Positions 50,078 through 52,323 of a DNA stretch of 64,000 bases are shown piece after piece. Origin of the DNA: Brevibacillus sp. (GTDB lineage Bacteria > Bacillota > Bacilli > Brevibacillales > Brevibacillaceae). The position numbers and the translations under genes are program-made. The DNA is taken from positions 62,001 to 126,000 of the forward strand of contig JACDOF010000007.1 of NCBI GenBank assembly GCA_017656235.1, given 5' to 3'. The notes beneath the pieces were generated by a model. It ran no database searches, was not told the origin of the DNA, and was given only the letters and a program-made list of their open reading frames with translations. The number at the start of each line of letters is the position of its first letter. Within the stretch, counting starts at the first letter, position 1.

Positions 50078-50300
50078 GCGCGGTCTATTGGACGTGCTGG
50101 ATTCATTTGGTAGGTACATAGTCACATTTGGTGGGAATCTATGTAATATTCATGATTCTACTATTGCCGAAAATTGTAAAAAGCCTGTAATATATTTGTA
50201 TAAGGAGGGGTGATGAATTATAGACCGTATGTTGGTCGCTTGGTCTATATGGAGCCAGTAGCGAACCCACCCTCCCTCTGTACAGAAAGGGGGGATAGCA

Positions 50301-50378
50301 ATGAAGAAATGGTTCGTAGCAGTTCTCCTCGTAGCAGGTATCGTAGCCGCCACTTCTGCGCACTTCAATGTAACCTAG
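50301..50378 (+). CDS. 25-aa putative secreted peptide precursor (MKKWFVAVLLVAGIVAATSAHFNVT)
   Basis: ATG preceded by aaaggggggatagca RBS; signal-peptide-like Lys-Lys + hydrophobic core + A-T-S-A then HFNVT stop. Below ORF-track cutoff. Confidence 0.55.
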   Translation: MKKWFVAVLLVAGIVAATSAHFNVT

Positions 50379-50402
50379 AATGGCAGACGGCAAGTCTAAA
50401 GG

Positions 50403-50431
50403 AAAAACACCGCTACTATAGTGGTGTTTTT
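50403..50431 (+). terminator. Terminator/attenuator hairpin between the peptide and the DUF5317-like gene
   Basis: AAAAACACCGCTA-cta-TAGTGGTGTTTTT: 13-bp stem (one G-U) ending in T-run. Confidence 0.7.
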
Positions 50432-50453
50432 CGCTAGATAAGGAGGTGCGTAG

Positions 50454-51005
50454 ATGTCTATTGATATCATTTTGCTTTCGTTTCTCATCGCATTTTTACG
50501 CGGAGGGCGAATACGGGAGATACCCAGATTTAACAGGCTGTATTTTTTGCTCGCAAGTATTTTGCTGCAAGTATGTTCAGCGCTAATGCCAAGGCTGGGG
50601 GGGATTTTGGTCTCCATCGCCTACGTTTTTACACTGCTGTTTTTCTTTAGCAACCGCGAACACGAAGACATTCGGGTCTTTATGATCGGCTGGTTTTTAA
50701 ATGCGATTACGATTTGGTCCAATTCCGGGAAGATGCCTATTGACCTGGAGCAGGCAAAAAAGCTACCGTATTCATTGGAGCCTATTGTGAATGGAACGGA
50801 TTTTAAGCACACAGTGCTGACCGAGGATTCGAACCTCCCGTTTTTGGCCGATATTGTGTACATGCCCTTTCCCATTGAACGGGTGATCAGTATCGGGGAT
50901 ATATTTATCATGCTGGGTGCTTTCCTGCTTGTACAGCGCATTATGAACAAACCAATATCCTTAATTCAACTTCGAGAAGGTAAAGGTTATGCGGCGAAGA
51001 ACTGA
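50454..51005 (+). CDS. DUF5317-like integral membrane protein
   Basis: Four to five TM segments, RGGRIREIPRFNRLYFLLASILLQV, NSGKMP motif; RBS aaggagg. Confidence 0.6.
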   Translation: MSIDIILLSFLIAFLRGGRIREIPRFNRLYFLLASILLQVCSALMPRLGGILVSIAYVFTLLFFFSNREHEDIRVFMIGWFLNAITIWSNSGKMPIDLEQAKKLPYSLEPIVNGTDFKHTVLTEDSNLPFLADIVYMPFPIERVISIGDIFIMLGAFLLVQRIMNKPISLIQLREGKGYAAKN

Positions 51006-52323
51006 GATTTTACATACTTTGCAAGGATTCGTAGTAAGATATTGCTATCCATTGTTGGCTTTCTTTATTGTGGCCTTCGCCGTCCCTGCATGGGAATCTC
51101 GGGAAAATTGGGATGTATTGATCGTTTACACTCTCTTGTCGATATTTGTCTCGTTTACAGCCATCCGTACCGCTAACTTTGTCATCACGTTGAACAATGC
51201 TGTTACATTTTCCGCAGTTCTTTTATACGGAACCTGGACGGCCATATGGTGTGCGGTAATAGAAATATTAATTATTGCATTTTTGTTCAGGTCAGCCATT
51301 CCTAAATTTTTAGCCAATGCAGGACAAATGTTGTCAACCGTCTGGATTGTCGGCATGGTGCATCAATGGCTTGCATCCTTGCAGCTTCCTTCCATGTTGA
51401 CAGATACTGCGCTGGTATTTGTGTACTTTCTGATCAATACAGCATTATGCTCATTTGCAATATCCTACTTCTCTGGAGTCAAAACCATTCACGTCGCCAA
51501 GAGTCTCGTTCAAGATGGTACGTTAACCTATGTCCTGGTAATGGTGTTGGGTGGTATCGGGGCAAGGTTGATAGAAGTGTTCGGAGCACCCGCGTTGTTT
51601 CCGATACTCGTTACCTTTGTCATTATGAGTATCGTCTTCCACCAATACTTCAACAACCTGAACAGCCTGCAGCAAAAGATGGAAGAAATCAAGCATCTGA
51701 ATGATTCGATCCTGTTGGCGATGGCTTCTTCGATTGACGCCCGCGACCCGTATACGCACGGTCATTCGTATCGGGTCGCCTATTGGGGGCGCCAGCTCGC
51801 CCGAGCTATCGGACTGTCCAGGACAGAAGCAGAACAGGTGTACTACGGCGGCATTCTGCACGACATCGGCAAAATCGGGATCGAAGATGGTATTTTAAAC
51901 AAGGAAGGAAAATTATCCAAGGAAGAATACCACAGAATTAAACAGCATCCGGTCATTGGTTATCATATAGTGAAACAAGCCGGCGTTTTTGAGGAACTTT
52001 TGCCGGCTATTCGTCATCACCACGAAAGGGTGGATGGCAAAGGATACCCGGACGGGTTGAGCGGGACAGAGATTCCGCTGATCGCACGCATTATTGCGGT
52101 AACGGACGCGTTTGACGCGATGGTTTCAAACCGGCCATACCGCAAGGGGGTTCCGGTGGAGCAGGCCTTGCAAATCATCAAAGAAAACGCGGGGACCCAG
52201 TTCGACGCCGATTTGGCTGATACGTTTATACGATTGGTAAAACGATACTCGAAAGAAGAACTGGAAGAAGTGTTTCGGAACAGCGGCCAAAACAATATCA
52301 AGATCACAGAGGGGGCATCGTAA
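50989..52323 (+). CDS. Membrane-anchored HD-GYP domain protein (putative cyclic-di-GMP phosphodiesterase)
   Basis: Multi-TM N-terminus; HDIGKIGIEDGILNK and HHERVDGKGYPDGLSG; overlaps the preceding gene. Confidence 0.88.
   Translation: MRRRTEILHTLQGFVVRYCYPLLAFFIVAFAVPAWESRENWDVLIVYTLLSIFVSFTAIRTANFVITLNNAVTFSAVLLYGTWTAIWCAVIEILIIAFLFRSAIPKFLANAGQMLSTVWIVGMVHQWLASLQLPSMLTDTALVFVYFLINTALCSFAISYFSGVKTIHVAKSLVQDGTLTYVLVMVLGGIGARLIEVFGAPALFPILVTFVIMSIVFHQYFNNLNSLQQKMEEIKHLNDSILLAMASSIDARDPYTHGHSYRVAYWGRQLARAIGLSRTEAEQVYYGGILHDIGKIGIEDGILNKEGKLSKEEYHRIKQHPVIGYHIVKQAGVFEELLPAIRHHHERVDGKGYPDGLSGTEIPLIARIIAVTDAFDAMVSNRPYRKGVPVEQALQIIKENAGTQFDADLADTFIRLVKRYSKEELEEVFRNSGQNNIKITEGAS

Follow-up and report, generated by a model that had tools for sequence, protein, structure and literature searches.

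A 25-residue peptide whose C-terminal tail is exchanged along with the membrane domain of a nearby HD-GYP enzyme suggests an undescribed cell-to-cell signalling circuit in Brevibacillaceae

The DSF system (RpfF/RpfC/RpfG) passes a fatty-acid signal through a histidine kinase relay that ends in an HD-GYP c-di-GMP phosphodiesterase; for most membrane c-di-GMP enzymes, the ligands are not known. Among peptide-based systems, RRNPPA propeptides are 50-120 aa long, and their receptors are intracellular and reached via OPP (PMC11343458). In Staphylococcus agr, the agrBDC genes are swapped as a polymorphic block while agrA is shared (PMC8768832). Here we analyze a unit of a Brevibacillus genome in which a 25-aa peptide gene with a c-di-GMP-II riboswitch leader lies next to the genes of a DUF5317 membrane protein and a membrane HD-GYP protein. 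The tail of the peptide has been swapped among relatives together with the membrane part of the enzyme, which suggests an undescribed cell-to-cell signalling circuit. As the original prediction had supposed, we found no described system with such a composition in the literature searched, subscription literature being mostly outside its scope. Within this literature, DUF5317 is not mentioned, no paper combines Brevibacillus, c-di-GMP and a riboswitch, or a riboswitch, a quorum-sensing peptide and c-di-GMP, and titles and abstracts describe no peptide pheromone acting on an HD-GYP receptor.

The unit sits between argF and argG and consists, in order, of a promoter-like element, a leader, a 25-codon ORF, a terminator, a DUF5317 gene and an HD-GYP gene (Table 1); the neighbours at the locus are argF, DUF5317, HD-GYP and argG. 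Positions are those of the window, that is, the whole stretch of 64,000 nucleotides analyzed. This layout had been noted in the original prediction, and its coordinates proved right: direct reading gives TTGCCG (50164-50169) and TAATAT (50188-50193) with an 18-nt spacer, the ORF at 50301-50378 (MKKWFVAVLLVAGIVAATSAHFNVT) has a good RBS (AAAGGGGGG), a terminator hairpin follows it at 50402-50432, and the DUF5317-like gene (50454-51005, PF17248) overlaps the HD-GYP gene (50989-52323; HD_5, E 4.6e-37). The leader had been described there simply as structured; the structure is present, and its identity as a c-di-GMP-II riboswitch aptamer had been missed. At 8/12, the promoter hexamers would not attract notice by themselves, and they are absent from the site listing of the window; the box and the -10 element (ATTGCCGAA...TAAAAT) are kept in most relatives. 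We also observed that the conserved promoter box at 50160-50180, ATTGCCGAA(A/T)(A/T)TTGTC, looks like a pair of Spo0A boxes (TGNCGAA) that are spaced by about 10 bp and overlap the -35 region.

Table 1. Features of the peptide, DUF5317 and HD-GYP unit, in positions of the window.
Feature	Position	Strand	Basis
Promoter: conserved ATTGCCGAA box and TAATAT -10, 18-nt spacer	50164..50193	+	read directly
c-di-GMP-II riboswitch aptamer, single here	50198..50281	+	RF01786, 44.0 bits, E 2e-8, full length 1-84
Expression platform: P1 3' strand (CCCACCCTCC) can pair with Shine-Dalgarno AGAAAGGGGGG	50266..50294	+	predicted fold
25-aa peptide gene, MKKWFVAVLLVAGIVAATSA followed by HFNVT	50301..50378	+	conserved in 36/40 family genomes
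Variable pentapeptide HFNVT, codons 21-25, upstream edge of exchanged cassette	50361..50375	+	identity drop at codon 21
Intrinsic terminator AAAAACACCGCTAC..TAGTGGTGTTTTT	50402..50432	+	predicted hairpin
DUF5317 membrane protein, inside exchanged cassette	50454..51005	+	PF17248, E 9.1e-32
HD-GYP residues 1-225, polytopic membrane domain, candidate peptide sensor	50989..51663	+	partial Mantel; junction near residue 226
HD-GYP catalytic domain, residues 226-444, outside exchanged cassette	51664..52323	+	PF13487

A profile built from an alignment of 21 peptides gave a single match (E <= 2.1e-10) in each of 36 of the 40 Brevibacillaceae genomes, and the peptide is 25 aa long in nearly all carriers. 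It has a Lys-Lys start, one hydrophobic stretch, the motif ATSA and then a five-residue tail. Residues M1, K2, K3, V11, I14, V15 and A17-T18-S19-A20 are invariant in the alignment; residues 21-25 vary within limits ([NHAGT]-aromatic-x-x-x), with HFNVT here and NYNIG, NFHIG or NWTSW elsewhere. Third codon positions are free to vary at the invariant residues, and the mean pN/pS of the peptide is 0.26. This value, together with the single-site matches across the family, excludes a chance ORF, and by its pattern of conservation the ORF is a real gene under selection at the protein level. A lack of conservation in relatives carrying the pair had been named beforehand as grounds to abandon the original prediction; instead, the peptide has been kept. 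The residue at -3 of the candidate cleavage site, Thr, is merely acceptable to signal peptidase.

Wherever the contig is long enough to tell, the peptide gene in these 36 genomes precedes those of DUF5317 and HD-GYP; Brevibacillus thermoruber, B. borstelensis, B. formosus, B. reuszeri and B. massiliensis are among the named carriers. The four genomes of the family without the peptide (G005, G010, G013 and G015) also lack DUF5317 and an HD-GYP ortholog. Outside the family the peptide was found once (genome G117, locus L098), in a unit that also has tandem c-di-GMP-II aptamers, a terminator, DUF5317 and the beginning of a similar membrane gene, and that adjoins two upstream pilB/pilT-like ATPase genes in place of argF; the assembly is fragmented and the contig 4.5 kb long, so this copy possibly reflects contamination. 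DUF5317 itself is present in 114 of 399 sampled Bacillota genomes, and membrane HD-GYP genes flank it in many other Bacillota without such an ORF. The peptide is not a general partner of DUF5317/HD-GYP pairs: at 30 other Bacillota loci no leader-like hydrophobic small ORF was found upstream of DUF5317, and no such peptide was found with the pairs of Clostridia. Since pairs elsewhere (e.g., in Clostridia) occur without the peptide, the pair has an older function and predates the peptide, which may therefore have been recruited as a ligand for a pre-existing sensor.

Three further observations concern individual genomes. The HD-GYP gene of G007 is broken up into two ORFs of 149 and 280 aa (L100, 2723-4064), perhaps by a frameshift; peptide, aptamers and DUF5317 are intact despite the split. 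At another locus of this genome (L101), a putative HTH-TPR (RRNPP-like) gene at 633-1991 is followed by a 39-aa peptide (MKKWFMSMLVVIGLVASFAGIAAAKAQSQIDPNWLGTGW, at about 1988-2110), the leader of which resembles that of the 25-aa peptide. Finally, the ArgF+ArgG tree places the record "Anoxybacillus sediminis PCH 117" (L113, L171) with B. thermoruber (support 1.0), and the record looks misnamed.

Pfam and NCBIfam scans of the two membrane protein genes gave only DUF5317 and HD domains, with no AgrB-type gene or histidine kinase. The AlphaFold model of the DUF5317 protein is a confident one (pLDDT 89.7) and had no match in a fold search against PDB. The catalytic domain of the HD-GYP protein structurally matches PmGH (4mcw) and PA4781 (4r8z), solved c-di-GMP and cGAMP phosphodiesterases. 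Aligned with these two, it has the HD and HHExxDGxGYP motifs with their metal ligands, and H259, H291, D292, K295, H320, H344, H345 and D373 plus GYP are invariant in 22 HD-GYP orthologs. The membrane domain forms a polytopic bundle of helices whose resemblance to ECF S-components is weak (4huq_S, TM 0.74 by target, E 1.3; 4dve, E 0.22). The ECF S-component fold binds small ligands; the likeness is too weak to name one here.

Comparison of close relatives gave the decisive evidence, namely that the locus is a mosaic. DNA identity is 88-100% through the promoter, the aptamers and codons 1-20 of the peptide. Across codons 21-25, DUF5317 and the membrane domain of HD-GYP it is only 43-81%, before rising again in the catalytic domain. 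In the pair of G012 ("Anoxybacillus sediminis", NWTSW tail) and G028 (B. thermoruber, NYHIG tail), identity is 92-97% from -240 through codon 20 and 44% at codons 21-25; it is 43-74% across terminator spacer, DUF5317 and membrane domain of HD-GYP, and returns to 85-99% in the catalytic domain. The same edges are seen between B. formosus (tail NYNIG) and B. porteri (tail NFHIG), whose ArgF proteins are 97% identical: peptide residues 1-20 are identical (100%), with 61% identity in the membrane domain and 92% in the catalytic domain. Species pairs with at least 97% identity in ArgF and the same pentapeptide have membrane domains that are 95-100% identical. The downstream exchange junction lies near residue 226 of the HD-GYP protein; in two separate contrasts, the upstream edge places the tail within the cassette but not the hydrophobic leader.

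The phylogenetic trees give the same picture. B. reuszeri has formosus-like flanks, and shares its membrane module and tail with G012; these NWTSW genomes unite (support 1.0) only in the tree of DUF5317 plus membrane domain, and G012 pairs with G028 in the ArgF+ArgG tree (support 1.0) and in the catalytic-domain tree (0.99). The tree of DUF5317 plus membrane domain also gathers the NYNIG genomes (support 0.75). Pentapeptide type requires 14 changes on the membrane tree (minimum 12; at least 17 in shuffles), 17 on the flank tree and 16 on the catalytic tree. We compared tail distance with domain distance in 21 non-redundant genomes by partial Mantel tests controlling for ArgF distance: the tail correlated with the HD-GYP membrane domain (rho 0.477, p 0.0006), weakly with DUF5317 (p 0.03), and showed no correlation with the catalytic domain in these genomes (p 0.15). 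The C-terminal pentapeptide follows the membrane-domain tree, not the species tree, and the locus is a pherotype-like cassette in which putative signal and sensor co-vary and are exchanged as one unit flanked by conserved DNA.

Only some three exchanges are clear-cut, and the edges are sharply mapped in just two of them; the tail adjoins the exchanged DNA, and physical linkage contributes to its co-inheritance. Because independent events are few and neighbouring DNA is inherited together, the case for a tail-sensor relationship is strong, though not proof; an edge that falls at the codon 20/21 boundary in each of two contrasts is not readily explained by chance linkage. Evolution thus supports recognition of the tail by a putative DUF5317/HD-GYP membrane sensor: the original proposal that an HFNVT-like tail could be sensed by the neighbouring membrane proteins finds strong evolutionary backing in the exchange of the pentapeptide with DUF5317 and the HD-GYP membrane domain.

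The leader would link the same unit to c-di-GMP on the side of peptide synthesis. The aptamer of the window falls below the RF01786 gathering score (53.5), which on inspection we attribute to a recoded pseudoknot (CGCU/AGCG, not GCAC/GUGC) and a joining segment with one base fewer; the GAUGAA and AACC segments are retained, and the peptide loci of several relatives score 53.6-56.8 bits. It is the one credible c-di-GMP-II site in the whole genome, which has five c-di-GMP-I sites. An aptamer precedes the peptide gene in 29 of the 36 peptide-bearing genomes; since it is absent or undetected at the locus in the other seven, the riboswitch is not essential to the module. Other c-di-GMP-II riboswitches share the aptamer fold with GAUGAA, the P3 loop/J pseudoknot and AACC, and they control a downstream ORF, as is predicted here. 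Here, in contrast, the putatively regulated ORF is a 25-aa peptide and not a large gene, the pseudoknot is recoded and most Brevibacillus relatives have two tandem domains, the second, RBS-proximal one often degenerate and without GAUGAA (e.g., L016, L024 and L028). This second domain may be a degenerate or a variant aptamer. Other c-di-GMP-II sites in relatives have larger genes downstream, with no such small ORF found there.

Given that the leader is a c-di-GMP-II riboswitch, c-di-GMP probably controls translation of the peptide. The predicted expression platform folds alone at -11.4 kcal/mol, and an equivalent hairpin between the P1 3' strand and the Shine-Dalgarno was predicted in every aptamer-bearing relative folded. 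As the P1 3' strand is complementary to the RBS, and the bound aptamer would hold it away, the switch is most likely ON at high c-di-GMP; we infer this direction from the pairing, since the longer fold of the window is ambiguous and does not clearly separate the on and off states.

A terminator stem (ACACCGCT..AGTGGTGT) occurs at the locus in nearly all 36 peptide genomes, and is usually unique per genome. DUF5317 starts 21 nt past the hairpin, so DUF5317 and HD-GYP must be transcribed either by read-through or from a more distant upstream promoter; because this gap leaves DUF5317 no room for a promoter of its own, it is plausible that the terminator yields peptide in excess over the two proteins. 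Separately, the stem, G-U wobble included, is nearly invariant across the family, and its loop and flanks vary. Since a plain terminator should show compensatory changes, a sequence-specific role of the stem (for an RNA-binding protein, an antisense RNA or an sRNA) is possible.

We consider it fairly probable that the unit is a peptide-signalling module, in which an exported peptide under riboswitch control has its tail read by HD-GYP/DUF5317, tuning c-di-GMP hydrolysis in a feedback. The c-di-GMP-II riboswitch would set translation of the peptide. This product, a minimal signal peptide with a tail of five residues, would be Sec-inserted or exported and cut, probably after ATSA-20, releasing the tail. 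On the outer side of the membrane, the polytopic N-terminal domain of HD-GYP, partnered by DUF5317, would then bind the tail, and this recognition would alter, with one sign or the other, c-di-GMP hydrolysis by the HD-GYP domain. This would close a feedback loop, possibly shared between cells, in which the terminator 3' of the peptide gene would keep the peptide in excess over its receptor. More tentatively, though as a serious possibility, the unit could represent a new class of cell-cell communication, composed of a Sec-exported pentapeptide pheromone, a one-component membrane c-di-GMP phosphodiesterase as receptor (with DUF5317) and a c-di-GMP riboswitch setting pheromone synthesis. The unit gives a genetically encoded candidate ligand for one membrane c-di-GMP enzyme, with natural specificity types that make the ligand prediction testable by simple swaps. 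If true, the module would provide a first functional context for DUF5317; the riboswitch would gate the peptide signal and the peptide signal would gate the messenger read by the riboswitch. An intracellular second messenger and an extracellular peptide would thus be in direct mutual control, and the specificity types of signal and sensor would be interchangeable.

Co-exchange of tail and sensor is equally compatible with a tethered ligand. The peptide might be kept as a single-pass microprotein, a subunit with its extracytoplasmic tail in contact with HD-GYP/DUF5317 of the same cell, in a private c-di-GMP feedback and not in signalling between cells; this would fit its 25 aa with a Lys-Lys start and one hydrophobic stretch, and the invariance of V11, I14, V15 and A17-A20, beyond the needs of a disposable signal peptide. 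However, exchange of the sensor leaves the hydrophobic part behind with the flank (100% identity, against 42-62% for the membrane domain), so that this part need not match the sensor, and the invariant ATSA ahead of the variable tail looks like a cleavage site; we regard such a subunit as unlikely. Paired polymorphism is also typical of toxin-immunity pairs, and the small hydrophobic peptide could be an antimicrobial or type I-like toxin, with DUF5317/HD-GYP as the matching immunity. The single chromosomal copy at one locus per genome and the conserved polar tail speak against a toxin, while the c-di-GMP switch and the intact c-di-GMP hydrolase domain point to signalling, leaving this explanation highly improbable.

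The original prediction had compared the peptide with Phr signals, and the tail does resemble Phr pentapeptides in length and shape. It could then be exported, re-imported by the oligopeptide permease and act on a cytoplasmic RRNPP receptor encoded elsewhere, with DUF5317 and HD-GYP as bystanders; the 39-aa peptide of G007, with its similar N-terminus directly 3' of an HTH-TPR-like gene, would agree with this. But the tail tracks the adjacent membrane domain, and the peptide is present only alongside DUF5317/HD-GYP. Membership in RRNPP/Phr was rejected: no TPR (RRNPP) receptor gene is adjacent or in the unit, and the precursor has no pro-region and the wrong length (25 aa vs 50-120 aa). Even action on a distant receptor is more improbable still than a toxin. 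We give hardly any credence to the idea that the ORF is a mere leader peptide, without a functional product, coupling riboswitch and terminator to set DUF5317/HD-GYP expression. Its position between the riboswitch and a conserved terminator, with DUF5317 reached by read-through, would suit that role; covariation of the tail with a downstream protein would be unexpected for a leader, and attenuation was rejected in view of selection at the amino-acid level and a stop-to-hairpin distance that varies among relatives, unlike in ribosome-position attenuators.

The proposed signalling module can thus be set against the known systems. With Rap-Phr/RRNPPA it shares a short precursor with a Sec-type leader and a C-terminal 5-aa candidate signal; it has neither the long propeptide nor the OPP-reached intracellular receptor of those systems. 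With DSF it shares an HD-GYP c-di-GMP phosphodiesterase as the end point of a cell-density signal, and differs in its ribosomal peptide and one-component membrane HD-GYP protein. As in agr (AgrD/AgrC), the peptide gene adjoins that of a candidate polytopic membrane receptor, and peptide and receptor swap while the output part stays with the genome. Unlike agr, the unit has no AgrB-type gene and no histidine kinase, the receptor itself being an HD-GYP phosphodiesterase, and the edges of exchange fall within the peptide gene at one end and the receptor gene at the other. Nor is there a cyclic thiolactone: none of the 21 aligned peptides has a Cys, and most tails have neither Cys nor Ser. The unit is neither RRNPP/Phr nor agr, and it evolves like agr.
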